From Elusimicrobiota bacterium (lineage in GTDB: Bacteria; Elusimicrobiota; Elusimicrobia; Elusimicrobiales; UBA9959), in contig JAUSCK010000280.1 of NCBI GenBank assembly GCA_030651035.1, positions 1 through 39,907 on the forward strand: DNA of 39,907 bases, given 5' to 3'. The position numbers were made by a program, and so were the translations under genes. This document shows positions 1,951 through 37,234 of this stretch, in pieces. The notes beneath the pieces are model-generated. The model had not been told where the DNA came from. It saw only the letters and a program-made list of their open reading frames with translations, and did not search any database. The stretch's first letter is position 1. Each line of letters begins with the position of its first letter.

Positions 1951-1972
1951 ATTTCTTTATTCGGAGCTAAAT

Positions 1973-2004: not shown

Positions 2005-2017
2005 TGCTGTTTACTTT

Positions 2018-4650: not shown

Positions 4651-4670
4651 GTTGTGTGCCGGCTTAATTA

Positions 4671-4676: not shown

Positions 4677-4683
4677 TTAGGCG

Positions 4684-6648: not shown

Positions 6649-6722
6649 AGCAAGCCTTGCCGATGGATTTTAAGCCGCAAACAATAAAGGTCTGACAGAC
6701 CTTAGGGCTCTTGTCCTCTAAA

Positions 6723-7141: not shown

Positions 7142-7190
7142 TTAAAACTGGCGCGGCTTTACTGCCCGTCGACACCTTCGCTGTTTCCCG

Positions 7191-7880: not shown

Positions 7881-7915
7881 AGGCAATCACAGAACATACA
7901 ATTAAACAGACAGTA

Positions 7916-9541: not shown

Positions 9542-9580
9542 AATTTTTCCTAATGCTTAGACATGGGATAATTGTGAGCC

Positions 9581-9716
9581 GGCGGACGACGCAGGGGCCG
9601 GGTTAGCAAAACCGGTCGGAAGCCTGAGCTTGCGTAAGCGCGAAGGCTGAGACGCGGAAGCGCGCGCACGGTGTGCGCGACGCTGGTTTTGCGTTCCGGC
9701 CCCTGTGGCGTCCGCC
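9581..9716. repeat. 136-bp multi-branched inverted-repeat element between sdhB and fum
   Basis: The outer arms pair in three perfect blocks: 9581-9588 with 9709-9716 (8 bp), 9592-9601 with 9696-9705 (10 bp) and 9606-9613 with 9685-9692 (8 bp), separated by internal loops of 3-4 nt. Inside are further stems: AGCCT 9621-9625 with 9644-9648 capped by GCTT/AAGC, and CGCGCAC 9663-9669 with 9673-9679. As RNA or single-stranded DNA it would fold into a branched structure. It ends 2 bp from the sdhB stop. It could attenuate or process the transcript, or be a dispersed structured repeat. Confidence 0.7.
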
Positions 9717-9718
9717 CC

Positions 9719-10486: not shown

Positions 10487-10502
10487 AATTAAAGTTCTCC
10501 AA

Positions 10503-12416
10503 TCATTTATAGCTTCTTTCCGCCATCTTTATATGCTCGAAAGTCAGCGCTTCCTTATGCAGCTTGGCTTCGTTGCCTTCTCCCTGGTATTCCCAGACGG
10601 CGGCGTGCGAGGCGTTCGCGTCGTCGCGCTTGGCTTCCCCTTCCGGGGTAACGGATTCTTCCCGGAAATGTGCGCCGCAGGATTCCTTGCGCTCCAGGGC
10701 GTCCCTCACCAGCAGTTCCGAGAACTCCATGAAGTCGGCTATCTTCATGGCTTTTTCCAGGGTCTGGTTGAAGTCTTTGTCCGCGCCGGAAACAGCCACG
10801 TCTTTCCAGAACTCTTCTCGTATTTCAGGTATCTTCTTCAGGGCCTTTTTAAGGGTCGCCTCGGTGCGCCCCATACCCACGTCGTTCCACATGACGTTGC
10901 CAAGCTGCCTGTGCAGCTCCGACGGGGTTTTCTTTCCCTTGACCGCAAGCAGGCGGTTGATGCGCTCCTGCACCTGTTTTGTCGAATCGGTGAATTCCTT
11001 GTCGCCGGTGGAGACGGGTTCGAACTTGTTGGCGCCGAGGTAGCCGCTGACGGTGGTGGGCGCGATAAAGAACCCGTCCGCCAGCCCCTGCATAAGGGCG
11101 CTGGCCCCCAGGCGGTTGGCGCCGTGGTCCGAGAAATTGGCCTCGCCCATGGCGAACAGGCCCGGGATGGTGGTCATAAGGTTATAGTCAACCCAGAGGC
11201 CGCCCATGGCGTAGTGGGGGGCCGGGTAGATGCGCATCGGGGCCTTATAGCCGTTCTCGTCGGTTATCTGGTAATACATATCGAACAGGTTGCCGTAGGC
11301 GTCCTTTATCTTGTCGGCGCCTTTGCGTTTAATGGCGTCGCGGAAATCCAGATAGACCGACTGGCCGGTAGGCCCGGCTCCGAAGCCGGCGTCGACCACG
11401 GTCTTGGCGGCCCGGGAGGCTATGTCGCGCGGCACCAGGTTGCCGAAGGCCGGGTAGCGCCTTTCCAGGAAGTAATCTCGCTCGGCCTCTGGGATATCGT
11501 TGGGGGGGCGCTTGTCGCCCTTGGCTTTAGGCACCCATATCCTGCCGTCGTTGCGCAGGCTTTCGCTCATCAGCGTTAGCTTTGACTGGTGCTCACCCGA
11601 GCGCGGTATGCAGGTGGGATGGATCTGCGTGAAGCAGGGGTTGGCGAAGCCGGCCCCGCGCTTATAGGCCGCCCAGGCGGCCGAGACATTGCACGTGGCG
11701 GCGTTGGTGGAAAGATAAAAAACATTGGCGTAGCCGCCGGTGCAGAGAAGAACGGCGTGGCCGGAGTGGGACTCGAGTTCACCGGTCAGCAGGTTGCGGG
11801 CGGTTATGCCGCGGGCGTGCCCGTTCTTTACCACGATATCCACCAGCTCGCGGCGGGGCAGCAGGGTAACGGTGCCGGCCGCCACCTGGCGCATCATGGC
11901 CGAGTAGGCGCCCAGCAGCAGCTGCTGCCCGGTCTGGCCCCTTGTATAGAAAGTGCGGGAAACCTGCGCCCCGCCGAAGGAGCGCGTGGATAGAAGGCCG
12001 CCGTATTCCCGTCCGAAGGGCACTCCTATAGCCGCGCAATGGTCTATTATCTGGTTCGAGATCTGCGCGAGGCGGTAGACGTTGGCTTCGCGGGCGCGGT
12101 AGTCGCCGCCCTTTACCGTATCGTGGAACAGGCGCCAGACGGAATCCCCGTCGTTGGTGTAGTTCTTGGCGGCGTTTATCCCGCCCTGCGCCGCTATGGA
12201 ATGGGCGCGGCGGGGGGAGTCGTGCAGGGTGAGGACTTTCACGTTGTAGCCCAGCTCGCCCAGCGAGGCCGCAGCCGAGGCGCCGGCCAGGCCGGAGCCC
12301 ACCACAAGCACGTCGTACTTGCGGCGGTTGCTGGGGTTCACCAGCTTAAGATTGAATTTATGCGAGTCCCATTTCTTTTCTATCGGTCCCGCGGGAATTT
12401 GAGCGTCGAGTTTCAT
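10503..12416 (-). CDS. sdhA: Succinate dehydrogenase/fumarate reductase flavoprotein subunit
   Basis: The 637 residues match the Bacteroidetes/epsilon-type SdhA/FrdA. It oxidises succinate or reduces fumarate at a covalently bound FAD. A dinucleotide-binding [10 protein letters not shown] lies at about residue 40. H72 in [15 protein letters not shown] is the expected FAD-linking histidine. Active-site blocks follow: the [13 protein letters not shown] and [12 protein letters not shown] segments, a [15 protein letters not shown] loop, and [21 protein letters not shown] strong GGAGG precedes the start. It lies 68 bp after sdhC and 16 bp before sdhB. The direction of catalysis in the cell cannot be read from sequence. 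Confidence 0.95.
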
Positions 12417-17460: not shown

Positions 17461-17468
17461 AATTATTC

Positions 17469-17534
17469 ACATGGATGAGCAGGATAGACAGGATAAAAAC
17501 GGGAAAAAATCCTGTATATCCTGTTTATCAATGT
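17469..17534. repeat. ACAGGAT-type inverted repeat, copy A
   Basis: The left arm ACATGGATGAGCAGGATAG.. (17469-17494) pairs imperfectly with the complement at 17509-17534. Each arm carries two copies of the (A)CAGGAT unit at 9-nt spacing and ends in ACATGGAT or a close variant. The same element is present at 23906-23975. This copy lies in a convergent intergenic gap just beyond the terminator. Confidence 0.8.
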
Positions 17535-17558
17535 TCAATCCTTCTTGCGGTGAGCTGG

Positions 17559-18509
17559 TTAGTCGTCCGGGGTTTCTTCCGGCGCGGGGGTCTCCTTAGC
17601 GGGCGCGGGCTGATCGGCGGGGGCCGCCGGCGCCGGCGGCGCGGGGGCCGCTTTCACCGGTTGTTCAGCCGGCACCTGGGGCCGGGCGGACGGTACCGCC
17701 CAGGTCTGATCCGGCTTTTCCGGGGTTATCTCCGGTTTGTCCGGCGCGGGCGCGCCTTCAACCGCCTCCCCGGGCAGCCAGGTCCTGTCTGGCGGCATCG
17801 GAGGGCCGGAAAGAGGCTGCGTTTCTGTTTCCGGCTGCGCCGCTTTCTGCGGCAGTTCATACGGCGCGTACCCGGCCGCTTTCAGCCGGGAATAGACGTC
17901 TGTGGCCGAGCGCCACAGCATCTGCCTCAGCAGACCGTTCTCGCGGGTGCCCGGGGAAAGGAACGGGTAAAGCGGCGCCATCAGCAGGTGGAAAGTGGTC
18001 TTATGCACCGCCTCTGTTTCAACGCGCACGGTGCCGGTGGAAACGGCGAAGTCGGCGGTGAGGTAATAGTTGACCCGCAGCGAGGAGGGGAGTATGAAGA
18101 TAAGCACCGTGTCCACCAGGTAGGAGCGGAAAAGGTCGTTGTAAGTCCAGCGCCCGAAGCTTGTCAGTTCAAGGCGCAGCGTGCCGCGGCCGCGCGCCTT
18201 GTCATAAAGGCCGGCATCGGAGAAGATCTCCCTGGCCTTGCGGTTTAAATTGGCTGCGTCCACCGGGTCCACAGGGCGCGGCTTTATTTTTTTGGGCCTG
18301 GTGGAGCCCTCGCCTATGGAGTCGGTCGGGGCCCGGTAGGGAAAATTCTGCCAGGAAACCTGTATATCAGAAAACGGTATAATGCCCTTGTCTTCAAGCA
18401 TGGCCTGCGCCGTGTCGCGCTCCACGCGGATATCCCCGGAGTTGAAGGAGGCGCAGCCCCAGAAAGCCGGCAGGACAGCCAGAAGCAGTATGAGTTTAGT
18501 TGTTTTCAT
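17559..18509 (-). CDS. Lipoprotein with proline-rich C-terminal region
   Basis: I choose ATG 18509 (316 residues), which gives a compact lipoprotein signal MKTTKLILLLAVLPAFWGC; the frame extends 11 codons further to 18542 and neither start has a good Shine-Dalgarno. The family is not firmly recognised. Residues 20-215 form a mixed domain with a TLRLELTSFGRWTY strand, a hydrophobic DTVLIFILPSSLRVNYYL segment, and LWRSATDVYSRLKAAGY, somewhat like the DUF4136/GNA1162 group of envelope lipoproteins. Residues 225-316 are Pro/Ala-rich with repeated PAP, PEKP and EETP units, likely an extended periplasmic linker. Export and lipidation are inferred from the lipobox. Confidence 0.7.
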   Translation of the reverse strand: MKTTKLILLLAVLPAFWGCASFNSGDIRVERDTAQAMLEDKGIIPFSDIQVSWQNFPYRAPTDSIGEGSTRPKKIKPRPVDPVDAANLNRKAREIFSDAGLYDKARGRGTLRLELTSFGRWTYNDLFRSYLVDTVLIFILPSSLRVNYYLTADFAVSTGTVRVETEAVHKTTFHLLMAPLYPFLSPGTRENGLLRQMLWRSATDVYSRLKAAGYAPYELPQKAAQPETETQPLSGPPMPPDRTWLPGEAVEGAPAPDKPEITPEKPDQTWAVPSARPQVPAEQPVKAAPAPPAPAAPADQPAPAKETPAPEETPDD

Positions 18510-18610
18510 GTTTGGCACAGAGCCTTTGCTGACATTCATCATTCTGAAATGCTGTTCAATTTTATATATTATATTATACTGTTCTATTCATCAAGAGGCT
18601 TCGGGGGCAT

Positions 18611-19816
18611 ATGGCGCTTAAAAAAATAGAGAAAATCATTAAAACCGAGGGCAAGCCCGACATAATAATACGGCAGGCCAAGGTGCAGGACATGCGCCGC
18701 ATACAGATGCTCTACGCCGAGATCTACGGCGGCAGCTACTCCGTGCCTATCGTGACGGATAAAGAGAAGATGCGCAGCGCCATAGAGAACGACGATTATT
18801 ACTGGATAGTGGCCGAATGCCAGGACCGCGTGGTGGGCAGCCTCGTTTACGCGCTGAACCTCACCTACAGGAACTCGAAGGCCTTCGGCGCGGTGGTGAG
18901 CCAGGAGTTCAGGAAGCACAACCTGGCCTACACGATGATGAAGCTGGTCCTCGACGACATCACCACCAACAAGGACCTGGTGGACCTGGTCTACGCCACC
19001 ACCCGCACCGCCAACCACGCCCCGCAGAAACTGACCGAGAGCCTGGGCTTCATAAAGCTGGGCATCTTCCCGAACACCCACAAAGTGCAGGACAACGAGA
19101 CGCACTGCCTTACGGCTTACCTTACCGAGAAAGCCCTGCAGCGCCGCAGGCGCAAGCCCCGCATCATCCCTGAGGTGGCGCCGTTCTATGATATCGTCCG
19201 CCGGCAGATCGCGCTGGACAGGCCGCAGATAAAGGACGTGAAAGGGGAATATAGCGACCATAAACAGAAGATCCCGCTGCTCCACTTCGAGGCCATCACC
19301 GCCCCGGAGTTCATCAAGCACAGGTACCGAAAAATAAAGCAGACCAGTTTCTTCGAGCACACCGTGATGCCGTTCCACGACCCTAACCTCCTGCTGATAA
19401 CCCCGGACCAGGGCACCGAGGTCTACATGACCTATAACGCGAAGGACAAGTACAGTGTCGTGGTCGCCGGCATGACCAACGAAAAAAGCTTCGCGGTGGT
19501 GCTGGAGAGCATCGCCCGCAAGGTCAGCGAACTGGGCATGGCCTACGTGGAGGTCATAATAGACGCCTACTCCCCGGCCACACAAAGGGACGCCATGGAC
19601 GCGCGCTACATCCCCAGCGCCTATTTCCCGTGCGCCAAGCGGATGGGAGGCAAGCGTTACGATTGCGTAATTTTCTCCCGCACTTTCGAAGTGCTGGACT
19701 TCCGCAACGTCAAGATCATCTCGCTCTACAAGAACTTCCTGCGCGAATACCTCAAGCTCTGGCGGGAGAACTACATAGAGCTGGTATTCAAGACGGAGCC
19801 GAAGTTAAAGAAGTAA
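18611..19816 (+). CDS. GNAT-family N-acetyltransferase-like protein with C-terminal extension
   Basis: 401 residues. Residues 17-180 fit a GNAT fold: IIIRQAKVQDMRRIQMLYAEI at the start, WIVAECQDRVVGSLVYAL as the beta2-beta4 region, AVVSQEFRKHNLAYTMMKLV as the acetyl-CoA binding motif A, and a late ESLGFIKLG. A basic stretch RRRRKPR (about 178-184) leads into a C-terminal domain (about 200-390) of no recognised family. The acceptor substrate is unknown. The gene appears to stand alone, between the divergent lipoprotein gene and the HigBA pair. Confidence 0.75.
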   Translation: MALKKIEKIIKTEGKPDIIIRQAKVQDMRRIQMLYAEIYGGSYSVPIVTDKEKMRSAIENDDYYWIVAECQDRVVGSLVYALNLTYRNSKAFGAVVSQEFRKHNLAYTMMKLVLDDITTNKDLVDLVYATTRTANHAPQKLTESLGFIKLGIFPNTHKVQDNETHCLTAYLTEKALQRRRRKPRIIPEVAPFYDIVRRQIALDRPQIKDVKGEYSDHKQKIPLLHFEAITAPEFIKHRYRKIKQTSFFEHTVMPFHDPNLLLITPDQGTEVYMTYNAKDKYSVVVAGMTNEKSFAVVLESIARKVSELGMAYVEVIIDAYSPATQRDAMDARYIPSAYFPCAKRMGGKRYDCVIFSRTFEVLDFRNVKIISLYKNFLREYLKLWRENYIELVFKTEPKLKK

Positions 19817-19901
19817 TACCGGCAGACAGTAAGAGCGGGTAGAGCAGGATTGTAACGCATAGAGAAGGCGAACGGGGCGCGGCCGGTTTGGCCGCCGGCA
19901 A

Positions 19902-20243
19902 TCAATGGTTATACGCTGTTCCGGGATGTTTATGCGCGAGGCGCTGGAATATTTCCGGCTCAATATAAGCCACTTCAAGAAGCCGCCTTGCCGGGCCGGA
20001 AGGTGAGTTCCATCCTTGTTCCCACGCCCGCACAGTTGACGCTGTTACGTTTAACAGCGAGGCGAAAACCGGCTGGCTTACGCCGAAACCGCGCCTAAGG
20101 CTGGCAATCTGCTCTTTACGCCACAGCCTGGCCGGCGCTGGAATCTCCAGCGTTGTCTTACGAAGTTTTTTTGCGCCATGCGCATGCGCGACAGCTTCTT
20201 TGAGTCCAAAGATAAGTTCTTGTCCTAGTTTTGTCTTGTGCAT
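19902..20243 (-). CDS. higA: HigA-type antitoxin (helix-turn-helix)
   Basis: 113 residues. The C-terminal half carries a Xre/HigA helix-turn-helix: FGVSQPVFASLLNVTASTVR then AWEQGWNSPSGPARRLLEV, the standard WEQG...P.G.A..LL signature. In such systems the antitoxin binds and neutralises the toxin and represses the operon promoter. The start codon is 1 nt after the toxin stop, and AGGAGG (20258-20253) inside the toxin gene supplies a strong ribosome site. Toxin first is the higBA order. Confidence 0.9.
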   Translation of the reverse strand: MHKTKLGQELIFGLKEAVAHAHGAKKLRKTTLEIPAPARLWRKEQIASLRRGFGVSQPVFASLLNVTASTVRAWEQGWNSPSGPARRLLEVAYIEPEIFQRLAHKHPGTAYNH

Positions 20244-20244
20244 A

Positions 20245-20580
20245 TTATTGCGCCTCCTCTTTCAGCTTCCGCACCAGGGTTTTTAAAATCCGCTTTTCAT
20301 CCGGGGAGATATCATCTTTTTCATCCTTGTCGTAAAGGGCAAGAAGATAAATTTGTTCTACGGCGGCTATATCCAGATAGATTGCCCTGTAGCCACCGCG
20401 CTTTCCCTTACCGCGGCCCGGATCTGCGATCCTGAGCTTTCTGAGCCCTCCCGTTCCCTGAACAACCCGCCCGGCGTCGGGGTTTTTAAGCAGTTCTGTC
20501 TGGATATTCTCCAGGCAGGCCACCCCTGCCCTATCAATCCGTTTCTGAAAAGCTGACGTTTCTATAAAAGTGCGTCGCAT
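20245..20580 (-). CDS. higB: HigB/RelE-family toxin
   Basis: I start at ATG 20580 (111 residues); the frame runs on to 20619, but that would put the promoter/operator inside the gene. MRRTFIETSAFQKRID opens a RelE/HigB fold, and LRKLRIADPGRGKGKRGGYR followed by IYLLALYDKDEKDDISPDE is the conserved core and C-terminus. Family members cleave mRNA on the ribosome. The basic GKRGGYR patch fits RNA contact. Its ATG lies 11 nt after the -10 hexamer, so the message has almost no leader and no Shine-Dalgarno. Confidence 0.88.
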   Translation of the reverse strand: MRRTFIETSAFQKRIDRAGVACLENIQTELLKNPDAGRVVQGTGGLRKLRIADPGRGKGKRGGYRAIYLDIAAVEQIYLLALYDKDEKDDISPDEKRILKTLVRKLKEEAQ

Positions 20581-20619
20581 ACTATCAAATAGTATATACC
20601 ATTTAATGGTATATGTCAA
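20581..20619 (-). promoter_or_regulatory. higBA promoter embedded in two operator palindromes
   Basis: On the minus strand TTGACA (20619-20614), a 17-nt spacer and TATACT (20596-20591) form a near-perfect sigma-70 promoter. A 21-bp perfect palindrome (arms ATATACCATT and AATGGTATAT, 20594-20614) fills the spacer and touches both hexamers. A second, ACTAT-CAA-ATAGT (20581-20593), covers the -10 downstream edge and expected start site. Repressor (HigA) binding would block polymerase directly. Confidence 0.88.
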
Positions 20620-20780
20620 GGGAAGGCATTGTAGTCCGTATAAGGCCTGTTTCCGTAGCTCTTTCCTTAATTTCGCTCTTTCCGCTGATTAAAAACTTTT
20701 CGGAAAAAGCTCCCTTTCCTGTTATTTCTTAATAATACAAAAAAATCGGCGAATTTCTTTAAATTAAAAAAAAGCCCTCT

Positions 20781-20802
20781 GCGCCCGGTTGTCGCCGGGC
20801 GC
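20781..20802 (-). terminator. GC hairpin with T-tract downstream of the transposase remnant
   Basis: GCGCCCGG (20781-20788) and CCGGGCGC (20795-20802) form a perfect 8-bp stem with a 6-nt loop. On the minus strand it is followed after a short spacer by nine T residues. It lies about 25 bp past the IS91-like reading frame, so it may be a terminator or the hairpin at that end of the element. Confidence 0.55.
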
Positions 20803-20828
20803 GCTGGAGTGTGGGGGGTGTGTCTGGC

Positions 20829-22368
20829 CTAATCGTCGGCCGGGGCGGGCTCTATGGCTTCGTTATCAACCCGCGGGTCCAGCTGGCACTGTTCGTCCGG
20901 AGGGCCGCAGGCGTGTTCATACAGTGAAGCTTGAGGTGCCGGTCGAAATCTTGGGAATTCCGACGAAAGGCCCAGGTGGCTTAAAAGCCGCACCAATTCT
21001 TTATCATTAAGAATTACGGCAACCGGCTTAAGTTCAAGGCCGCACTTGGGGCAGGTGAGTGGAAATACTTCAAAAACCCGCGCCAGGCAGGCCCCGCACT
21101 TTGGCTCGTTTACAGAAAAAGTGCGGGGCAGGCGGCCCAGGAGCCGGCTTTCTTTTTTACCTTGTCGATTTTGTCCCGCAGGGCGGCCCGGTCCGCCTCT
21201 TTTTCCGCCTTGGCTACCAGCAGCGGCCGCAGCGGCGACCTGGGCGCCAGGGCGCCGTAATAATGGACCAGGTTCTTCTTGGCCGTTAGATGAGCATAGC
21301 TCTTGATACGGCACTGGCATAGCCTTGGGCGGCGGCATCAGCAGTGTCCAGCGCCGCAGGAACTCGATGGGCGTCATTGCCAGCATTTCCGATTTGCCCG
21401 CCTTCGGCTCGGTGCGGTAGAGCACCGTGTTGGCTTTTTCCGCGTAGACCAGCCGTTTTTGCGAAAGGGCTGGCCTCGAGCAGTACCCGTAAGCGCTTAA
21501 GCCCTTCCCTGTCAGAGTCCTTGATCAATACCTCTTCGTGTATTGAAAATCCTAAATTCTTCCAGGAAAGCAAATTCCCGGCGGCTTCCCGGGGTAGGCC
21601 GCAGGCCCTGCGGACGCGCCTGATGAATTTTTTACGGACAGCTGTTACAATAGCGGCCAGTTGCTGGTCCGTCGGGCAGGGGACCGGGGTGAATACCACT
21701 TCTTTTCGGCCGATAGCATTTGTTTTCAAATTGAAGACACCGTCCGAAACCACAGCATGTACATGGATGTGTAAATTTAACGCCCCGCCAAACCGTTGAA
21801 TGAAATGAAGTTGGGCCGGCGTCCCGGTGGTGTTTTGGCAAAGGAAGCGGTTTATTTCACCGGAGAATATTCCTGAAAGCTCGCCCGCCAGCGCCGGATT
21901 GTGGTTCAGGAAAAACCTCAGGCGTTTACGGCCACCAATACCCATTGACGATATGGCACAAAGGCCAGCAGCCGCTCAAGCGCCTGGCCGGTAAGAATGG
22001 CAGAGCGTTTGGCGTCGCAACAAGGGCAGCCCCGGATTTTGCAGGAGAGGGCCACGAAAACATCGTGCCCGCATTTTGGGCAGCGGAAGCGCACAGCGCC
22101 ATAGCGCATTACGCCGCATTCAATGAATTTTTCAAGGGTGGATATTACACCGGGCTGGGGGCGGGGGGGCCGCGAATCGGTCGGGGTTTTTCAGCCATTG
22201 CTCGAATTCCTGCAGGTTACCCAGGACTATCCGGGACAGGGGACTGCCGGGAGCGCGGGCGCGGTAGCCGGGTGTTTCACGGTGGGAGACAGCATGGTTG
22301 ACGCGCCCGGACCCGCCGGGTTTAAGAGCCGGGACTACAGTAGCAGACTGCCTTTCGTCAGCGCACAT
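20829..22368 (-). pseudogene. IS91-family (Y2, HUH) transposase broken by several frameshifts
   Basis: Consecutive pieces of one IS91-type transposase lie in different frames. N-terminal: YRARAPGSPLSRIVLGNLQEF (from 22368). Zinc-binding: FRCPKCGHD..CKIRGCPCCDAKR (about 22090-22010). Catalytic: NLHIHVHAVVSDGVF with its HxH (about 21780). C-terminal: MLAMTPIEFLRRW, KNLVHYYGALAPRSPLRPLL, then LTCPKCGLELKPVAVI and LLSHLGL (to about 20950). Breaks fall in a G7 run at 22163-22169, near 21930, near 21480 and near 21270-21320. Intact relatives move single strands by rolling-circle transposition. Four or more breaks mean this copy is dead. Confidence 0.85.
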
Positions 22369-22728
22369 GCCGCCCCCCTTGGTTATTGCGCTTTCTGTAA
22401 GTCTGTTTATAGCGTAGCAGACGACCCCGACAGCCTACTGTCGGGTTTAAAGAGCGCGGCGGGCGCGTTCAGCGCGGGGGCGGGGATAAAATTGATAAAC
22501 ACTTGATTTGGACTACGCGATGTCGCCTGAAGTCAGCCTGGGCAGCACACAACGCATAACGCTGAAAAAGAAGTTTTGAGTTAAGATACACAATAAAAAT
22601 ACGCTCACCTCGCTGTATTGTGAACTACCTCAGAAGTTAAATAATGGACTGCCTCAATTTGCTCACAAGGAGTTTGTATAATTTGAGGTAAGCGGTGTAA
22701 TAATAAGAATCGTTATTTAGGATGAATT
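22369..22728. other. Gene-free, AT-richer gap between IS91 remnant and LuxE operon
   Basis: No convincing gene in 360 bp. It holds a perfect hairpin, CCCGACAG (22426-22433) with CTGTCGGG (22438-22445), which may belong to the outer end of the IS91-like element. It also holds a TATAAT at 22677-22682 and short recurrences of ACTACCTCA/ACTGCCTCA around 22625-22656. Base composition is lower in G+C than the neighbouring genes, consistent with inserted DNA. Confidence 0.5.
22677..22682 (+). promoter_or_regulatory. Candidate -10 box of the LuxE/LuxC operon
   Basis: TATAAT lies 46 nt before the LuxE-like start codon, leaving a short leader with AGGA at 22719-22722 as ribosome site. The expected -35 position has no good match. 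Confidence 0.45.
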
Positions 22729-23898
22729 ATGGCAGACCTTTCAGTTGAAGACCGCCTTCCGCCTTTTTACAGGCCGCTTAAGAGCCGGGCCGCCGTGGAC
22801 GCGCTTTTTGAAACCCCGGCTTTCGAGTATTCCCCGAAAACCTCAAAAGCTTTCTGCGCCGCCATGCGCGCCGCGCTGGATTTCCAGGGTAAGCGCGCCC
22901 CCGTGCTGAAAGCCCTTTATAAGGCCGAGGGGTTTGCCCCCGCGTCGGTTAAAACGGAGCGGGATATTGAAAAGATACCCTTCATATTCGTCTCCGCCCT
23001 GAAAGAGCGTGACCTGACAACGCTGCCTTATTCGAAGATAGTCCTTGAGCTGAAATCCAGCGGCACCTCGGGCCAGCGCAGCCGCATGCAGCTCGATAAG
23101 GGGTCGCTGATGCGCGTGCGGCGGATGGCCTGGAAGGTTTTTGAGGGGCTGGGCCTGACCGATCTTGAGCGGGCGCACGACTATATCTGCTTTACCTATG
23201 ACCCAGAGGTGGCCAAGGACCTGGGCACCGCCTGGACCGACAAACTGCTGAGCGGCTTCACGAAGAAGGGGGAGATCTTTTACACCTTCCGCTGGAGCAA
23301 GGCCAAGAACGATTTCTATTTCGACCTGGACGGCGCGGTGCTGGCCATGAAGAAGTTCGAGGACGCCGGCGGCCTGGTGCGGCTGGTGGGCTTCCCCGCC
23401 TTCGCGCTGAAGCTTACGGAGGAATTCAAGAGCCGCTTCGGCCGCTATCCGAAGCTTAATCCCGGCTCCAGCGTGGTCACCGGCGGGGGCTGGAAGACGC
23501 TGGCCGACGAGGCCATGGACAAGAAGGTTTACCGCAAGATCCTGGCGGACAACCTGGGCATACCGGTGGAGAACGTGCGGGACCTGTTCGGCATGGTGGA
23601 GCACGGCGTGCCGTACGTGGACTGCCGGCTGGGCAATTTCCACGTGCCCAACTACGGCCGCGTAATAGTCCGCCACCCGGGCACGCTGGAGCCGCTGGGC
23701 TATAAAGAGCGGGGGCTGCTGCAGTTCATCACGCCGTACCTTACCAGCTATCCTTCGCTTTCCGTGCTGTCCTCCGATTTCGGCCTGCTGCTGCCCCGCT
23801 GCGCCTGCGGCCTGAGCGGCCCGGTGCTTGAGATAAAGGGCCGCGCCGGCGTGACGAAGCTGAAGGGCTGCGCTATTTCCGCGGCTACAATGTTGTAA
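22729..23898 (+). CDS. LuxE-like acyl-protein synthetase
   Basis: 389 residues, close to the usual 370-380 of LuxE. In bioluminescent bacteria LuxE activates a fatty acid with ATP, holds it as a cysteine thioester and passes it to the reductase LuxC. Visible landmarks are IPFIFVSALKERDL, the adenylate-binding LELKSSGTSGQRSRMQLD (about 105-122), GSSVVTGGGWKTL, LFGMVEHGVPYVDC, and a PRCACGLSGPVLEIKGRAG block near the end. C381, eight residues from the C-terminus, is positioned like the acyl-carrying cysteine of LuxE. AGGA lies 6 nt before the ATG. The LuxC fusion gene follows after 86 bp. The acyl substrate is unknown; no luxAB is present. Confidence 0.88.
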   Translation: MADLSVEDRLPPFYRPLKSRAAVDALFETPAFEYSPKTSKAFCAAMRAALDFQGKRAPVLKALYKAEGFAPASVKTERDIEKIPFIFVSALKERDLTTLPYSKIVLELKSSGTSGQRSRMQLDKGSLMRVRRMAWKVFEGLGLTDLERAHDYICFTYDPEVAKDLGTAWTDKLLSGFTKKGEIFYTFRWSKAKNDFYFDLDGAVLAMKKFEDAGGLVRLVGFPAFALKLTEEFKSRFGRYPKLNPGSSVVTGGGWKTLADEAMDKKVYRKILADNLGIPVENVRDLFGMVEHGVPYVDCRLGNFHVPNYGRVIVRHPGTLEPLGYKERGLLQFITPYLTSYPSLSVLSSDFGLLLPRCACGLSGPVLEIKGRAGVTKLKGCAISAATML

Positions 23899-23905
23899 GT
23901 TTTAA

Positions 23906-23975
23906 ACATGGATAGACAGGATATACAGGATTTTATTGCTCACTCTTTTATCCTGTCCATCCTGTTCATCCATGT
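23906..23975. repeat. ACAGGAT-type inverted repeat, copy B
   Basis: The left arm (23906-23931, beginning ACATGGATAGACAGGAT) pairs with the right arm (23950-23975, ending ATCCATGT) around an 18-nt loop. The arms match copy A at 17469-17534 in sequence and size. It fills the gap between the LuxE and LuxC genes and stops 9 bp before the next start codon, where a ribosome site would be expected. Confidence 0.85.
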
Positions 23976-23984
23976 GAATGATTT

Positions 23985-26633
23985 ATGAAAATATATAATA
24001 CTTATCTTTTTGGAAAAGTTCTGAACAAGACCGCCTGGACCCCGGCCGAGTTGGAGGAGATCGGCCTGCGGGCGCAGGCCGCCCGCGAACTGATGCGCGG
24101 CGCCTCGCGCGAGTATATAACCGAAACCCTGGCCAGGGCCGGGAAGCTGTTCGAGAAAGGGGGCAGGTACCGCAGGGCGGCGCTGGCCCACCTTAAAGAA
24201 CACATCACTTTCTCCGCGTCGGTAATAGACAAAACCCTGGACGTGATACCGGAGCTTTTAAACAAGCAGGCCATGCATAAGCGCATGACCATGGAGCTGT
24301 TCCTTCCCTACGCGCTGGAGGCCCCGGTGGAGCGCCGCGGCTACGACGGGCTGCTCCGGGCCATGCCTAAGGGCGTGGTGCTGCACGTGGGCGCGGGCAA
24401 CGTGTTCCTGGGGATACTGGACTCGCTGGTGATAGGCTATCTGACGAAGAACGTGAACATCGTAAAGCTTTCTTCCTCAGGCTCGAACTTTATAAATATT
24501 TTCATGGACGCGCTGAAAGAGGTCGACGAGAAAGGGCTGCTTTCGAAATCCGCCGCCATAACCACCTGGAAAGGCGGCAGCCAGGGGCTTGAAGAGGCCG
24601 CGCTGAAGAACGTGAACGCCGTTTTTGTCTGGGGCGGGTACGAGGCGGTGCAGGCCTACCGCAAAATAGCCCCCATAGACGTGCGGGTCGAGGGTTTCGG
24701 CCCGAAGACCAGCGTGGGCGTGGTCTTCGAAAGCTGCGTGGAGTACGAGGGCATGGACGCCGTGGCCCTGCGCGCGGCCACCGACGCCTCGCTGTGGGAC
24801 CAGGCCGCCTGCTCCTCGCTTCATACGCTTTATTTTATAGCCCCGGCCAAAAAGCACAAGGCGCTGGCCGCGGATTTCCTTAAGGCGGCTAAAAAGCATT
24901 TCGCTCAGCTCGCCGCTGACCTGCCCCCGGGAAAGCTGTCTCCCGACGAGATGGTGGAGATAACCAAGGCCCGCCAGTTGGCCCGCGTGGACGCGGCGCT
25001 GGGCGCGGCCTCTTACGAGAGCTCCGCGCCTGCGACCGACTGGACCGTGATCTACGAGAAGGACCCGGTCTACCGCGTTTCGCCGCTCAACCGCGTGCTG
25101 TACGTCAAGACCGTGGAGAGCCTGGAAGAGGTGAGGGACAGGCTGCTGCCGCTGCGCGGCTATATACAGACCGTGGGCGTGGGCGGCTCCATAGAGCGCA
25201 AGAAGGTGCTGGAGACGCTGGCGCCCGCCGGCATCGCGCGCGTGGTCAAGCTCGGCAAGATGCTCGAGGAGGCCAACGGCTCGCCTCACGACGGGCTCTT
25301 CCCCATGATGTCGCTGGTGAACTGGCTGCCTATAGAGGAGAAGCCCTCGCAGCTGGACCGGTTGAGCGAGCTGGTGGATCATGCCAGGAGCCGCAGCCCG
25401 TTCTACGGCCGCCATTTTAAGGGCGTGCCCAGGATAGTCAGCATGGAGGATTTCGCCAAGGTGCCTTTCCTGGAGAAGCACCACGTGCTTGAGAATACCC
25501 CGCCCGACAGCGCCGACCTGCTGACCTCAAAGGTGCAGCGCGGCATCTATTTCGCCAGCGGCGGCTCCACGGGCCAGCCCAAATATATCTTTTACGACCA
25601 GCACGAATACGACCACACCTGCCGGATGCTGGCCTTCACGCTGGAGGCGGCGGGCCTGAACGAGAAGGATACGATAGCGAATCTTTTTATCGCCGGCAAC
25701 CTCTGGTCCAGCTGGCTTTCGGTGGAGAAGGCCATCGCCTATACCAAGGCCATCTCGGTGCCGGTGGGCAGCAACCTGCCGATCGAGAATATCGTCGGCT
25801 ACCTGGAGGACTTCAGGGTGACGGCGGTGATAGGCCTGCCGTCCTTCCTGGTGAAGCTGGCGGAATACGTGAAGGCCAACCCCGCCAAGCACAAGCTCCG
25901 CGTGGCCAAGATCTTTTACGGCGGGGAATATGTGGGCGTGGAGATGGTGAAGTTCTTCAAGGGCGTGTTCCCCGGCGTGGACGTGCGCTCGGCCGGCTAC
26001 GCCACGGCGGATGCCGGCGTGGTGGGTTTCCAGTGCCCGGTGTGCGTGAAGGGGCAGCATCATCTCTTCTCGTCCAGCCAGTTCATCGAATTCGTGGACC
26101 AGGACACCATGCTGCCGGTGAAGAAGGGCGACGTGGGCGAACTGGTGGTCACTTGTCTTTCGAAGAAGCACATGCCCGTTATCCGCTACCGGGTCGGCGA
26201 CCTGGGGCGCTGGCTTCTGAAGCCGTGCGCCTGCGGCAGGAAGGAGCTGATGTTCGAGATCCTCGGGCGCTGCGACGACCGGATCCACGTGGGCGGGGCC
26301 CACCTGTTCGTGAACGATATCCAGAACGCGCTGGGCAAGGTTCCGGACCTGAGTTTTAATTTCCAGGCGGTTATAGACAAGAAGGGCCATAAAGATACGC
26401 TGAGGGTGCGGGTCGAGGTAACGGACGCTGCGGCCCTGGCGCGCTCGGGCGAGCTTGCTGACCTGCTGTGGCGGGAGATAGAGGAGCATTGCGAGGACCT
26501 GCACGAGAGCGTGCGCCTGAAGTGGCTGGACAAGCCCCTGATCGAGGTGCTGAAGCCCAACACGATAGAGCGCATCCAGCGCACCGGCAAGATCCGCAAG
26601 GTCGTTGACAAAAGAGTAACAGTGACAAGCTGA
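23985..26633 (+). CDS. LuxC acyl reductase fused to a PaaK-like adenylate-forming ligase
   Basis: 882 residues with two domains. Residues 1-450 are a LuxC-type acyl-CoA/acyl-protein reductase: PKGVVLHVGAGNVFLGILDS (about 128-147), NIVKLSSSGSNF, and DQAACSSLHTLYF with catalytic-type C276; it should reduce a bound acyl group to an aldehyde with NADPH. Residues 455-882 resemble phenylacetate-CoA ligase (PaaK): SPFYGRHFKG, the ATP loop SGGSTGQPK (525-533), GYATADAGVVGFQC, RYRVGDLGRW, PCACGRKE, and ILGRCDDRIHVGGAHLF. A usual LuxC is about 480 residues, so this is a true in-frame fusion. No Shine-Dalgarno is seen because repeat copy B lies just upstream. Partner of the LuxE-like protein; the product is unknown. 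Confidence 0.9.
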   Translation: MKIYNTYLFGKVLNKTAWTPAELEEIGLRAQAARELMRGASREYITETLARAGKLFEKGGRYRRAALAHLKEHITFSASVIDKTLDVIPELLNKQAMHKRMTMELFLPYALEAPVERRGYDGLLRAMPKGVVLHVGAGNVFLGILDSLVIGYLTKNVNIVKLSSSGSNFINIFMDALKEVDEKGLLSKSAAITTWKGGSQGLEEAALKNVNAVFVWGGYEAVQAYRKIAPIDVRVEGFGPKTSVGVVFESCVEYEGMDAVALRAATDASLWDQAACSSLHTLYFIAPAKKHKALAADFLKAAKKHFAQLAADLPPGKLSPDEMVEITKARQLARVDAALGAASYESSAPATDWTVIYEKDPVYRVSPLNRVLYVKTVESLEEVRDRLLPLRGYIQTVGVGGSIERKKVLETLAPAGIARVVKLGKMLEEANGSPHDGLFPMMSLVNWLPIEEKPSQLDRLSELVDHARSRSPFYGRHFKGVPRIVSMEDFAKVPFLEKHHVLENTPPDSADLLTSKVQRGIYFASGGSTGQPKYIFYDQHEYDHTCRMLAFTLEAAGLNEKDTIANLFIAGNLWSSWLSVEKAIAYTKAISVPVGSNLPIENIVGYLEDFRVTAVIGLPSFLVKLAEYVKANPAKHKLRVAKIFYGGEYVGVEMVKFFKGVFPGVDVRSAGYATADAGVVGFQCPVCVKGQHHLFSSSQFIEFVDQDTMLPVKKGDVGELVVTCLSKKHMPVIRYRVGDLGRWLLKPCACGRKELMFEILGRCDDRIHVGGAHLFVNDIQNALGKVPDLSFNFQAVIDKKGHKDTLRVRVEVTDAAALARSGELADLLWREIEEHCEDLHESVRLKWLDKPLIEVLKPNTIERIQRTGKIRKVVDKRVTVTS

Positions 26634-26640
26634 TAGCTAT

Positions 26641-28290
26641 ATGTTCTTTACAGATCCCGCGGGCGGCTCGTCCAAAACCGGGTTTTTCCCGAAAATCCCC
26701 GTTTTAGCAGGTAAAATCCCGCTGCCGGCGCTGCTGTGCTTTCTTGTACTTGCCGCGCTGTCCCCGGTTCTGCATAACGGTTTCGTGAATTATGACGACG
26801 TCCAATATGTGCTGTCAAATCCGGCGCTTCGCGGCTCATGGCTTGATGCGCTCTCCTATTCCCCGGGTTATTACCATCCCGTAGTTACCCTGCTCTATAA
26901 AGCCGAGTTCTCCCTTTTTGGCCTTGCTCCGCTGCCTTACCATATCACAAGCCTCGCGCTTCACCTTGCCAGCTGCGTGTCGGTTTTTTATCTGTTCTCC
27001 CTGCTCGGCTGGCGCAGGGAGCCGGCTTTCCTGGGGGCGCTGCTGTTCGGCGTTCACCCGGTGCATGTGGAACCGGTGGCCTGGATCTCCGGGCGCAAAG
27101 AACTGCTGTGGGGGCTTTTTTCCTTCTGGACCTTAGGCTGCTATTTTAAGTACATAGACACCGGGAAGAACAGGTTTTTTATCCTCTCGCTTTTTTGTTT
27201 TGTCCTGGCAGTTCTTTCAAAACCCTTCGCCCTGATGCTCGTCTTCGCCGTCCCCCTGGCGGATTATTACCGTAAACGCGCCTTTAGCGCGGTTTTGCTG
27301 CTTGAAAAAGTCCCGTATTTTATAGCGGCGGCTTCTCTTTTTCTGCTTTCCTGGCTCCCCTCCGGTTTTCTTCTGGACGCCGGCTCCGGGGGATTCAATC
27401 CTTCAAATCCGGCCGCAGCGGGGGCTGAAAGCCTTCTGTTTTACGTGTGGAAATTCATGCTGCCGGTAAATCTTTCCGCCATGTATCCGCCGTCGGCTTT
27501 GCGGGTGGCGCCGGCAGTCCGGGTCTTTCTTCTTTTTGCGGCGGCTCCTGCCCTTTACGGCGCCTGGCGTATTTTGCGAAGGGCCGAAAACGCCGAGGCG
27601 GCAAAAGCCGCCGTCTTTTGCCTGGGATTTTTTATTATAACCATTTTCCCCGCCCTTCTGGCCCGCGCGCCGGCCGACCGGTACGGGTATGTTCCGGCGG
27701 CCGGGCTTTTTTTTCTTTACAGTTTCTTCGTATGGCGGCTATACGAAGTTTTCCGCCGGAAAAGGTTTTTCTCTCCCGCGCGGACGCTTGCGGCCCTGGC
27801 GGCCGCGCATTGCGTCGTTCTGGGCGCCGCTTCGTTCGAGCGGGCGGCGGTCTGGAGGGACACTTTTTCGCTGAGCGCCGATGTGCTGAAAAATGATCCC
27901 CGCCAGGCCGTGGCGTATTTCATCCGGGCCGACGCGCACAGGGAGGCGGGGCGGTATCGGGATTCGATAGCGGATTATAGCCGCTGCCTTGAACTGGCGC
28001 CGGGCAACTGGAAGGCGCTGAGCAACCGGGCCAGGGCTTTTGCCGATCTGGGTGAGTTTGACAAGGCCATAGCTGACTGCGGCGCGGCTATCCTGATAAA
28101 TCCGCGCTCGGCCCAGCTGTTCCTTAACAGGGGGAACGCCTTTTCCCTGAAGGGGGAGTATGTCGCCGCCCTCAGGGATTACGACCGCGCGCTCGCGATA
28201 TCCCCGGCCTTTACCCCGGCCGCTGAAAATAGACGCACCGTTCTGGGCAAGCTGAAATCAAGCCCCAAAAAGGCGCAGGCCCGTAATTAG
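26641..28290 (+). CDS. TMTC-like multipass membrane protein with TPR tail
   Basis: 549 residues. About nine to ten transmembrane segments span residues 25-400. The luminal-type loop NGFVNYDDVQYVLSNP, SYSPGYYHPVVTLLYKAEF, and GVHPVHVEPVAWISGRKELL are the signature of the TMTC/O-mannosyltransferase-like family; Y-D-D is the acidic motif seen in GT-C glycosyltransferases. Residues 415-535 are three TPR units (AVAYFIRADAHREAGRYRDSI, ALSNRARAFADLGEFDKAI, AQLFLNRGNAFSLKGEYVAAL). The ATG lies 7 bp after the LuxC fusion stop, without a clear ribosome site, so it is probably co-transcribed. Glycosyl transfer from a lipid-linked donor is inferred from family resemblance only. Confidence 0.8.
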   Translation: MFFTDPAGGSSKTGFFPKIPVLAGKIPLPALLCFLVLAALSPVLHNGFVNYDDVQYVLSNPALRGSWLDALSYSPGYYHPVVTLLYKAEFSLFGLAPLPYHITSLALHLASCVSVFYLFSLLGWRREPAFLGALLFGVHPVHVEPVAWISGRKELLWGLFSFWTLGCYFKYIDTGKNRFFILSLFCFVLAVLSKPFALMLVFAVPLADYYRKRAFSAVLLLEKVPYFIAAASLFLLSWLPSGFLLDAGSGGFNPSNPAAAGAESLLFYVWKFMLPVNLSAMYPPSALRVAPAVRVFLLFAAAPALYGAWRILRRAENAEAAKAAVFCLGFFIITIFPALLARAPADRYGYVPAAGLFFLYSFFVWRLYEVFRRKRFFSPARTLAALAAAHCVVLGAASFERAAVWRDTFSLSADVLKNDPRQAVAYFIRADAHREAGRYRDSIADYSRCLELAPGNWKALSNRARAFADLGEFDKAIADCGAAILINPRSAQLFLNRGNAFSLKGEYVAALRDYDRALAISPAFTPAAENRRTVLGKLKSSPKKAQARN

Positions 28291-34578: not shown

Positions 34579-35781
34579 ATGAGCGTGTTCTCGAAAACCC
34601 AGCTTGAAAAATATGCGGATGTTCTTATCTGGGGCCTGACAACGGCCCGCCCCGGCTTCAAAAAATACGACACCGTCCTGGTGCGCTGCGACCTGGAGGG
34701 CCGCGAGCTGGGAGAGATAATACACCGCAAACTGGTGCAGCGGAAGTGCAACGTGGTTTTCCGCTTCATGATGAGTCCGAAGCTGGAGCGCGATTTTTAC
34801 GAATTCTCGGACGAAAAGCAGCGGGCTTTTATAGCCCCCGGCGACCGGGAGTTCTTCTCCGCCGCGAACGGCAACATCTACATCCACGCCCCCGCCTCGC
34901 TGACCAACCTGAAGGGGATAGACACCAAGCGCCAGTCCCAGGTGGCCATAGCCCGCAAATTCCTGCGCGATATAATGAACAAGAACGAGGAGCAGGGGAA
35001 GTTCGGCTGGACCCTCTGCACCTATCCCACCGGGGAGCTGGCCAGGCAGGCGAAGCTCTCCGTGAAGGAATACTCGGCCCAGATAGCCAAGGCCTGCTTC
35101 CTCAACGAGCCCGACCCGGCTAAAAAATGGGCGCAGATATACAAAGACACGATGGCGATAAAGAAATGGATCAGCGGGCTCAATATCGACGTTATCCGCA
35201 CCGAGTCGAAGTCGATGGACTTCGAGGTAAAGCTGGGCGAGATGCGGAAGTTCCTGGGCGTGAGCGGGCATAATATCCCGTCCTTCGAGATCTTCACCTC
35301 CCCGGACTGGCGCGGCACCCGCGGCCGCTACTTCGCCAACCTGCCCGCCTTCCGCGGCGGCAACTACGTGGAGGAGATCCGCCTGGAGTTCAAGGACGGC
35401 CGCGCAATAAAGATCTCCGCGAAAAAGGGCGGGGAATACGTAAAGAAGATAATGGCCACCGACAGGGGCGCCTCGCAGATCGGCGAGTATTCCCTGACCG
35501 ACCGCCGCTTCTCGAAAATAGACCGGTTCATGGCCGACACGCTGTTTGACGAGAACCACGGCGGGAAGCACGGCAACTGCCACGTGGCTATCGGCTCCTC
35601 CTACACGGACACCTACACCGGCGACGTCTCCAGGCTTAACGAGGGCCTCAAGAAGAAGCTGGGCTACAACGACTCTGCGGTGCACTGGGACCTGATAAAC
35701 ACCGAGGATAAAAAGGTCACGGCCACCCTGAAGAACGGCAAGAAAGTCACTATCTACGAGAACGGCCAGTTCAAATATTAA
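34579..35781 (+). CDS. M29-family aminopeptidase (AmpS/PepS-like)
   Basis: 400 residues, the usual size. M29 enzymes are dinuclear metallo-aminopeptidases that trim peptides in the cytoplasm. Conserved sites are NIPSFEIFTSPD (E237; the family usually has P-x-G-E), GEYSL (E303), DENHGGKHGNCHVAIGSSY (H335 in the H-x-A-x-G strand) and HWDL (H369, D371). N-terminal YADVLIWGLTTARPG is also typical. No signal peptide. GGAGG lies 6 nt before the ATG. The replacement of G by F before E237 is a small departure from consensus. Confidence 0.9.
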   Translation: MSVFSKTQLEKYADVLIWGLTTARPGFKKYDTVLVRCDLEGRELGEIIHRKLVQRKCNVVFRFMMSPKLERDFYEFSDEKQRAFIAPGDREFFSAANGNIYIHAPASLTNLKGIDTKRQSQVAIARKFLRDIMNKNEEQGKFGWTLCTYPTGELARQAKLSVKEYSAQIAKACFLNEPDPAKKWAQIYKDTMAIKKWISGLNIDVIRTESKSMDFEVKLGEMRKFLGVSGHNIPSFEIFTSPDWRGTRGRYFANLPAFRGGNYVEEIRLEFKDGRAIKISAKKGGEYVKKIMATDRGASQIGEYSLTDRRFSKIDRFMADTLFDENHGGKHGNCHVAIGSSYTDTYTGDVSRLNEGLKKKLGYNDSAVHWDLINTEDKKVTATLKNGKKVTIYENGQFKY

Positions 35782-35851: not shown

Positions 35852-37108
35852 ATGTCCACACTTCTCGCTGCGCTTAGAACTGAAAGGGGGCGGCACGTGG
35901 CCGGGGCGGTATTCCTGGCCGGGCTCTCGGCGATGTTCCTCTTCTGCGGTTACGAGTTCATCCGCTCGCCCGCCGAATCCATCTTTATCGACCAGTTCGG
36001 CGCCGGCGCCAAGCCGTACGCTATCGCCTGCGTGCCGTTCATGATGGCCGCGATGATCTACAGCTACGGCCGCCTGCTTTCCTCCGTCGGCGCCAAAAAA
36101 GCCATGGCGGTTTCGATGCTGGGCAGCGCGTTCTTCCTGCTGCTGGCCTGGCTGCTGCTCGGCCGCGCCGGGAAGTGGCTGGCCTTCCTGCTGCTGGTGT
36201 TCAAGGAATCCTACGTGGTGATAATCTCCGAGCAGTACTGGTCCTTCATAAACAGCGTGCTGAAGGACGAGGAGGGGAAGGTCTTCAACGGCCCGGTGGC
36301 CGGCCTCGGGGCGCTGGGTTCGCTCATCGGCGGCTGGCTGCTGGGGCGCTTCGCGGTGGGCCTGGGCACGGATATTTTCGTGGCTATTGCAGCCGTCATG
36401 ATACTGCCGGCCGCCGCGCTTTTCTGGATAGGCTACAATAACGCCGGTGAGCCGAAGCCGTCTCCGGACGAGGCGGGGGGCAAAAAAGGCCACCTGCACC
36501 TGAGCATCCTTAAGGAAAACCGCACGGTGCTGTTCATCGCTTTAATAATCTTCGCCGCGCAGGTGGTGGCCACGGCGCTCGATTTCCGCTTTACACAGCT
36601 GGTGCAGGACTTCATGCCGCTGAAGGACGCGCGCACGGCCTACCTCGGGCATTTTTGGATGAACGTGAACATCTTCTCGTTCTCGATGCAGTTCCTGCTG
36701 ACGCCGCTGCTGCTGCGCTATCTCCCGCGGCGCGGCATACTTACCGCCATCCCGGCCGTGCACATCGTCACCTGCCTGCTCCTTTTCCTGTATCCCACGC
36801 TGGGGCTGGCCTCTACCGCTTTTCTGCTGTTCAAGGGAATGGACTATTCCATCTTCAGGGCGTCCAAGGAGACGCTCTACATCCCTTTCTCCTACGACAC
36901 CCGCTACCGCGCCAAGCAGATAGCCGACGCCTTCACCTACCGCTTCGCCAAGGGGCTTACCGCCACCTTGGTATCCGGGCTTAAGGCCGCGGGCTCGATA
37001 GCGCCCGGCTTCTACCCGGCGCTGGGCGTGTTTTTCTCAGCGGTCTGGCTGCTGCTGTCCTTCCCGCTCACGGCAAAGCGCGGGCCAGCCGGCGCGCTTG
37101 AACACTAA
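35852..37108 (+). CDS. MFS transporter resembling NTT ADP/ATP translocases
   Basis: 418 residues with about twelve transmembrane segments. Two regions recall the nucleotide transporter (TlcA/Npt) group rather than ordinary MFS: SEQYWSFINSVLKDEEGKVF in the middle and the late FRASKETLYIPFSYDTRYRAKQ followed by IADAFTYRFAKG. NTT proteins exchange ATP, ADP or other nucleotides across membranes; shorter homologues in free-living bacteria have unknown substrates. No Shine-Dalgarno is visible because the heptamer array occupies the upstream gap. It sits between the aminopeptidase and the spermidine-synthase-like fusion, all on one strand. Confidence 0.7.
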   Translation: MSTLLAALRTERGRHVAGAVFLAGLSAMFLFCGYEFIRSPAESIFIDQFGAGAKPYAIACVPFMMAAMIYSYGRLLSSVGAKKAMAVSMLGSAFFLLLAWLLLGRAGKWLAFLLLVFKESYVVIISEQYWSFINSVLKDEEGKVFNGPVAGLGALGSLIGGWLLGRFAVGLGTDIFVAIAAVMILPAAALFWIGYNNAGEPKPSPDEAGGKKGHLHLSILKENRTVLFIALIIFAAQVVATALDFRFTQLVQDFMPLKDARTAYLGHFWMNVNIFSFSMQFLLTPLLLRYLPRRGILTAIPAVHIVTCLLLFLYPTLGLASTAFLLFKGMDYSIFRASKETLYIPFSYDTRYRAKQIADAFTYRFAKGLTATLVSGLKAAGSIAPGFYPALGVFFSAVWLLLSFPLTAKRGPAGALEH

Positions 37109-37234
37109 CCTCCGGAAAAATTGCAAAAAGTCTTTCCCTACCGCTATAATATTAACAGACAGGGGACAGCGCGGCAGGTTATAAAATTCCCCGCCCCCTG
37201 GTTTCCCGGAAGCGCCGGGAGAAAAAGGCACAGG

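Follow-up and report, generated by a model that had tools for sequence, protein, structure and literature searches.

The 39,907-nt contig JAUSCK010000280.1 of an Elusimicrobiota bacterium (assembly GCA_030651035.1), hereafter called the window, corresponds to contig C252 of an Elusimicrobia genome bin of 4.47 Mb that is 96% complete. The window carries the core genes of a conserved biosynthetic cassette, namely those for a GNAT-type acyltransferase, a LuxE-type acyl-protein synthetase, and a LuxC acyl reductase fused to a PaaK-type adenylating ligase (Table 1). An initial annotation, made from the nucleotide sequence, had described LuxE followed by an in-frame LuxC-PaaK fusion, and this reading was borne out by Pfam matches, structure matches, and the intact 882-residue open reading frame (ORF). 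The limits of the unit required revision at both ends. The GNAT gene, which lay outside the annotated interval, is a third conserved member, whereas the TPR/PMT_2-like gene at its downstream end (26641–28290) has no homologue in 20 compared loci, and was rejected as a cassette member.

Table 1. Coordinates of the cassette genes, their catalytic sites, and other features of the window
Feature	Position	Strand	Evidence
GNAT-type acyltransferase, 401 residues, two GNAT-like domains; conserved first cassette gene	18611–19816	+	PF00583, E = 3e-06
LuxE-type acyl-protein synthetase, 389 residues	22729–23898	+	PF04443, E = 1.2e-31, 110 bits
LuxE predicted acylated Cys381, motif KGCA	codon 23869–23871	+	KGC Cys kept in 71/71 relatives
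LuxC-PaaK fusion, 882 residues	23985–26633	+	one ORF without internal stop
LuxC acyl reductase domain, residues 45–447 (LuxC part, residues 1–450)	24117–25325	+	PF05893; 7xc6_A, Z = 41.3
LuxC catalytic Cys276	codon 24810–24812	+	Cys present in 73/74 fusions
PaaK-type adenylating ligase domain, residues 455–880 (PaaK part, residues 453–880)	25347–26624	+	TIGR02155, 148 bits over residues 455–877; 2y27_A, Z = 39.5
Dispersed 86-bp palindromic repeat at the LuxE/fusion junction (GGATAGACAGGATATACAGGAT...)	23899–23984		inverted copy at 17461–17543 (paired with 23897–23984); inverted repeat pairs I1, I2
Insertion between GNAT and LuxE (limits approximate)	19817–22700		gap of 2913 bp vs ~0–130 bp in most relatives
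RelE-like ORF within the insertion	20245–20619	-	RelE, E = 3.3e-08
Y2_Tnp (IS91-type) transposase remnant within the insertion	21286–21945	-	E = 1.7e-07
Lipoprotein-like protein, divergent from GNAT	17559–18542	-	17/21 loci; kept as a neighbour in Elusimicrobiota only
M29 metallopeptidase, possible accessory gene	34579–35781	+	PF02073, E = 7e-101
Major facilitator superfamily (MFS)-type transporter, possible exporter, after the M29 gene	35852–37108	+	MFS_1, 2.3e-06; TLC, 1.8e-04; both below curated cut-off

LuxE and the LuxC-PaaK Fusion

The closest solved structure to LuxE is 7xc6_E, the LuxE subunit of the Photobacterium phosphoreum LuxC-LuxE complex (E = 7e-18), whose KGC motif aligns with that of the window protein. 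Active sites were compared in alignments of 74 LuxC-PaaK fusions and 71 LuxE proteins, and in the latter set both the SSGT loop and the C-terminal KGC Cys were invariant. The protein thus has the marks of the LuxE family, namely a LuxE domain with a nucleotide loop and a C-terminal Cys for acylation.

In the fusion, Pfam detected LuxC (PF05893) over residues 45–447 (E = 1e-65, 223 bits), AMP-binding over residues 525–722, and AMP-binding_C_2 over residues 771–877. An AlphaFold model built from 33 sequences (mean predicted local distance difference test score, pLDDT, 87.7) revealed two complete folds that adjoin almost without a linker. Residues 2–482 adopt the LuxC fold of 7xc6_A, and residues 452–878 adopt that of Burkholderia cenocepacia PaaK1 (2y27_A). 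Key residues of the PaaK domain include the P-loop (525–533), the Cys748/Cys750 pair, and the adenylation Lys869. The P-loop (except for the variable position 531), the A7 Asp, and the A10 Lys869 are kept in 72–74 of the 74 fusions, and the A5 acidic residue is changed from Glu to Asp in most of them. The N-terminal half therefore combines the LuxC/aldehyde dehydrogenase (ALDH) fold with the catalytic Cys of the LuxC family, and the C-terminal half has both ANL domains, the P-loop, an acidic A5 residue, the A7 Asp, and the A10 Lys of a PaaK-type adenylate-forming ligase. The match to TIGR02155, the equivalog model for PaaK phenylacetate-CoA ligase, scores 148 bits, under the curated cut-off of 646 bits, and in place of YGLFTGG, which lines the aromatic pocket of PaaK, the fusion has IAGNLWSSW. 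No phosphopantetheine carrier domain was detected between LuxC and PaaK, either by Pfam or in the AlphaFold model.

Cys276 and the ATP loop at 525–533 had been placed correctly in the initial annotation, as judged from the 74 aligned fusions, and the mutated active sites that it had listed as a possible objection were not found. The retention of catalytic residues in LuxE, LuxC, and PaaK makes both activating enzymes and the reductase look competent, and rules out a dead enzyme. The other suspicion, that the fusion joint is an assembly artefact, was ruled out by the aligned fusions, which come from separate genomes, and by the continuous model; the joint recurs in nearly all sampled genomes of the genus and in several other phyla.

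As families, LuxE enzymes use ATP to activate an acid, and LuxC enzymes use NADPH to reduce an acyl thioester. Very probably, LuxE of the cassette adenylates a carboxylic acid with ATP and holds it as a thioester on Cys381, from which Cys276 of the LuxC domain receives the acyl group for NADPH-dependent reduction to an aldehyde. An ordinary lux pathway was ruled out, since no protein of the Bac_luciferase family (PF00296, which includes LuxA and LuxB) was found in the genome of the bin, whereas 10 of 14 control genomes gave a match. By this family search, the absence of luxAB that had been noted around the fusion holds for the bin, which is 96% complete. LuxD (PF02273) was likewise not matched in this genome, a weak negative, since the control genomes gave no match either. 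The sequence data support the proposal of a system that turns acids into aldehydes without luciferase, by means of two activating enzymes and a single reductase.

The GNAT Partner and Operon Types

The AlphaFold model of the GNAT protein (pLDDT 89.7) contains two predicted GNAT-like domains. The first (residues ~11–180) matches RimI, Naa60, and phosphinothricin acetyltransferases with Z = 12–13, and the double-GNAT histidine acetyltransferase 9emd aligns over residues 13–335 with a root-mean-square deviation of 8. The fold is closest to those of N-acetyltransferases, several of which act on free amino acids or their analogues (phosphinothricin, arsinothricin, histidine). Gene-order comparison placed GNAT directly upstream of LuxE in relatives, and both genes precede the fusion on the same strand in 44 of the 45 Elusimicrobiota loci with enough flanking sequence. 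The same order was found in Armatimonadota, Chloroflexota, UBP16, and Halobacteriovoraceae. When co-occurrence was counted over 341 Elusimicrobiota genomes, without correction for shared ancestry, 75 had both the fusion and the GNAT protein, two had the fusion only, five had the GNAT protein only, and 259 had neither.

The neighbour listing that the initial annotation had proposed revealed recurrent GNAT, PaaK, MFS, and M29 genes, arranged in several ways. Type I operons have the order GNAT - LuxE - LuxC/PaaK. Type II operons, which occur in Elusimicrobiota, Riflebacteria, Bdellovibrionota, and others, have the order PaaK - 492-residue GNAT-containing protein - LuxE - LuxC/PaaK - MFS - GNAT, and the two types form separate supported clades. 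The Streptomyces operon reads PaaK - MFS - GNAT - LuxE - LuxC/PaaK. The genes added in the longer operons are a separate PaaK ligase and an MFS_3-type transporter. On Salmonella plasmids, such as the conjugative IncF plasmid CP054717.1 of Salmonella enterica (5560–11318), a four-gene operon reads LuxE - LuxC/PaaK - PaaK - GNAT. In other Elusimicrobiota genera, an M29 metallopeptidase gene lies 13–331 bp downstream of the fusion (loci L102, L103, L095, and L098), and an MFS-type transporter gene then follows it in several loci (L095, L098, L103, and others). No acyl carrier protein (ACP), FabG, or glycosyltransferase was recognised in the conserved core of the loci compared across phyla.

In four bins, type II operons are preceded by a gene for a similar secreted protein (L118:969-2015, L121:91-1224, L122:1159-2235, and L123:720-1784). 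In the two copies that were scanned, from L118 and L123, Gln_deamidase_2 gave weak matches that fall short of the cut-off (E = 2e-4 and 4e-4). The protein is a possible target, or else a partner, of the product.

Distribution across Bacteria

Fusions were sought across 84,980 species genomes, with plasmids covered too; hosts are named here as their bins are titled, and the placement of single contigs in bins may err. The closest relative, 91% identical, is from an uncultured Elusimicrobia bacterium. Of 32 genomes sampled from the genus, 31 encode the fusion, in most cases at 80–91% identity. It also occurs in the majority of the family's genera and in Elusimicrobiota of other classes. Full-length relatives with 28–39% identity occur in bins named Armatimonadetes, Chloroflexi, Wallbacteria, Planctomycetota, UBP16, Riflebacteria, Deltaproteobacteria, Bdellovibrionales, and Proteobacteria, and plasmids of Streptomyces, Streptantibioticus, and Salmonella also carry the fusion. 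An Armatimonadetes bin encodes a LuxE-LuxC-PaaK triple fusion, in which all three activities reside in a single 1314-residue chain.

A single origin of the fusion was not shown by a small LuxC tree, in which the fusions from Streptomyces and Salmonella fall together with LuxC proteins that carry no PaaK part (the Salmonella branch being long). Given this clustering, two fusion events or a later split are both possible. The bin of the window also contains a second LuxE-fusion copy (C319:3-3238) that is 82% identical and ends at the contig edge. It may be a paralogue or reflect binning contamination; contamination by another strain is possible, since the bin exceeds its relatives (1.4–3.6 Mb) in size.

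Unfused LuxE and LuxC genes were also encountered on plasmids. Positions 1–7116 of Streptomyces europaeiscabiei plasmid NZ_CP109155.1 read YcaO - metallo-beta-lactamase (MBL) - 51-residue ORF - DUF692 (MNIO) - LuxE - unfused LuxC. This run resembles a cluster for a ribosomally synthesised and post-translationally modified peptide (RiPP), and its LuxE and LuxC might convert the C-terminus of a peptide into an aldehyde. On Chloroflexota plasmid CP069395.1 (4631–7032), an unfused LuxE - LuxC pair with a 4-bp overlap has a heliorhodopsin gene nearby.

Local State of the Cassette and Other Genes of the Window

The three reading frames of the cassette (GNAT, LuxE, and the fusion) are all intact in the window. 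Most relatives within the genus have a 4-bp stop/start overlap between LuxE and the fusion, whereas the window has the palindromic repeat at this junction. The lipoprotein-like protein upstream of GNAT has no Pfam match. Near the start of the window, an ORF for a Y1_Tnp (IS200-like) transposase (1236–1910) is flanked by 29-bp inverted repeats (1169–1197 and 1929–1957), as are found with transposases associated with repetitive extragenic palindromic sequences; a homologue of this ORF lies directly downstream of the fusion in locus L040. Downstream of the M29 and MFS genes, a 913-residue protein (37121–39862) matches NF037959, fused MFS/spermidine synthase, over residues 583–813 (60.8 bits).

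Proposed Function

The probable output of the cassette is not light but an exported small molecule with a terminal aldehyde, which may be a leupeptin-like peptide. An N-acyl-amino or peptidyl aldehyde fits, since the partners of LuxE and LuxC are a GNAT protein, PaaK ligases without a recognised carrier protein, an exporter, and sometimes a peptidase. These neighbours suit such a product better than the lipid, pigment, or glycan that the initial annotation had suggested. We tentatively propose an operon free of nonribosomal peptide synthetases (NRPS) whose product, an N-acylamino or peptidyl aldehyde, is exported, by a logic like that reported for leupeptin. The substrate would be an N-acylated amino acid or short peptide: GNAT would acylate the amine of an amino acid, the PaaK domain would activate a carboxylate for amide-bond formation (or for thioester supply), LuxE and LuxC would reduce the terminal acid with ATP and NADPH, and the transporter would export the product. 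The second PaaK of the type II, Streptomyces, and Salmonella operons would then provide one more amide bond, giving two rather than the one of type I. In favour of this reading, the PaaK-fold AMP-ligases NatL2, AjiA1, ClxA, and BagE/FevW share the fold of the fused C-terminal domain (Z = 33–36), and show that this fold serves specialised-metabolite synthesis beyond phenylacetate; they are stand-alone enzymes that act on aryl acids.

Leupeptin, acyl-Leu-Leu-argininal, offers a precedent for this logic, as making it takes exactly one acylation, the formation of two amide bonds, and a single reduction. PMC11212599, citing Li et al. 2020, reports its formation by separate AMP-dependent ligases and a reductase without an NRPS; leupABCD is reported from Klebsiella, Xenorhabdus, and Photorhabdus (Li et al. 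2020). The leup cluster comprises four genes in 5.8 kb (PMC8283571). The NRPS-free aldehyde logic would be shared, and the gene number and 5.8-kb length resemble those of the Salmonella LuxE - LuxC/PaaK - PaaK - GNAT operon, whereas the operon type of the window has one ligase domain only. That the Salmonella operon is leupABCD was suspected from its gene number and length, and was not confirmed: the published leup primers are absent from loci L137–L140 (L137 being the Salmonella operon), and a scan of viral contigs gave no match to the leupA primer. Leupeptin is therefore kept as an analogy only. Other small peptide aldehydes are known to arise from NRPS reductase domains, or from a tRNA-using enzyme with an N-acyltransferase (PMC10548850).

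Several points weigh against a peptidyl aldehyde as the product. Characterised LuxE and LuxC act on fatty acids, and characterised PaaK on aryl acids. The acetyl-CoA loop of the GNAT protein is degenerate (RKHNLA vs Q/R-x-x-G-x-G/A), and its gene is cut off from LuxE in the window by the insertion. The exporter of type I operons (M29-MFS) was seen in Elusimicrobiota only, and lies 8 kb away in the window. The likeness to leupeptin is one of logic, drawn from published descriptions, and the published leupA primer translates to MKIAIHN, unlike the LuxE start of related operons.

A second reading, which goes back to the initial annotation, holds that the fusion resembles a carboxylic acid reductase (CAR), with PaaK making an aryl-CoA or aryl-AMP for its own LuxC while LuxE brings a second, fatty acid to that reductase. 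The product would be two sorts of aldehyde, or just one that could come from either donor. CAR and ElbD-type fusions likewise combine acid activation and reduction in one polypeptide, PaaK is joined to LuxC without a linker with both parts intact, and the closest PaaK structures are phenylacetate-CoA ligases. CAR, however, uses a phosphopantetheine carrier and a reductase of the short-chain dehydrogenase/reductase (SDR) type, whereas the LuxC-PaaK fusion has no carrier domain, an ALDH-type LuxC reductase, and its PaaK-type ligase at the C-terminus. This reading is unlikely, as it leaves unexplained both the near-perfect partnership with GNAT and the extra, separate PaaK of the type II, Streptomyces, and Salmonella operons.

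A role in lipid synthesis, in which a fatty acid is reduced to a fatty aldehyde (and then an alcohol) for ether lipids, wax, or N-acyl lipids while GNAT acylates a headgroup, has in its favour the long-chain fatty acids that are the canonical substrates of LuxE and LuxC, and the near-universal presence in the genus, which suggests a core function. An acid-activating/reductase-like fusion, ElbD of Myxococcus, also takes part in ether-lipid synthesis (PMC9131029). This role is nevertheless doubtful, since no conserved alcohol dehydrogenase, alkyl-dihydroxyacetone phosphate synthase, ACP, or lipid acyltransferase was recognised in the compared neighbourhoods, and the plasmid location in Streptomyces and Salmonella, together with the linked MFS exporters, suits an accessory small molecule.

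The decoration of a surface glycan, in which a small acid would be reduced and placed on a sugar, draws on the known luciferase-free LuxE/LuxC genes, which sit in flagellin-glycosylation islands of Aeromonas and Enterobacteriaceae (PMC7874193, PMC4875605). In Vibrio cholerae O1, RfbN, with a LuxE domain, belongs to tetronate synthesis, as cited in PMC4772473. In these systems, as in the cassette, LuxE and LuxC (or a LuxE domain) occur outside bioluminescence and near another acid-activating enzyme. Such islands, however, contain ACP, FabG, and glycosyltransferases, none of which was recognised in the conserved core of the compared loci, where GNAT, PaaK, and MFS genes stand instead; decoration of a glycan is improbable. 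Aldehyde recycling or detoxification, with LuxC running in reverse, PaaK and LuxE serving unrelated acyl activation, and no dedicated product, agrees with the ALDH fold of LuxC (Z ~31 to many ALDHs), but is very improbable: that LuxE keeps its acylation Cys, and that LuxE, LuxC, and PaaK also occur as one triple fusion, argues for an ATP-driven, reductive direction.

Relation to Known Systems and Significance

The cassette shares two protein families with the lux LuxC-LuxE complex of P. phosphoreum (PDB 7XC6), including the conserved KGC Cys and reductase Cys. It differs in having no Bac_luciferase match, in the fusion of LuxC to PaaK, in the GNAT partner, and in a structural identity of only ~23% for LuxC. 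The initial claim of a new aldehyde-forming system stands in part: luciferase-free LuxE/LuxC was already known, whereas the LuxC-PaaK fusion with its conserved GNAT partner looks undescribed. No description of the fusion or of a LuxE/GNAT/PaaK cluster was found in the literature searched, a weak absence, as subscription journals lay mostly outside that search. A bolder claim would be that LuxE, LuxC-PaaK, and the double-GNAT protein together define a class of NRPS-free clusters that is new to the literature, spans phyla, and is carried in part by plasmids. In uncultured bacteria of groundwater, Elusimicrobiota among them, such clusters would make N-acyl-amino or peptidyl aldehydes for export, to serve as protease inhibitors or as signals that form pyrazinones. 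This claim is possible but rather unlikely in its full extent.

LuxE/LuxC pairs without a link to light are usually, out of habit, taken to reduce fatty acids for luminescence. For such genes, the cassette defined here, which recurs in Elusimicrobiota, in Bdellovibrionota, and on plasmids of Streptomyces and Salmonella, offers a role that can be tested and a signature that can be searched for. That almost every sampled genome of one Elusimicrobia genus has the cassette suggests its importance to that lineage. If the product is a peptide aldehyde, protease inhibitors or signals could be drawn from a source that genome mining based on NRPS would miss.

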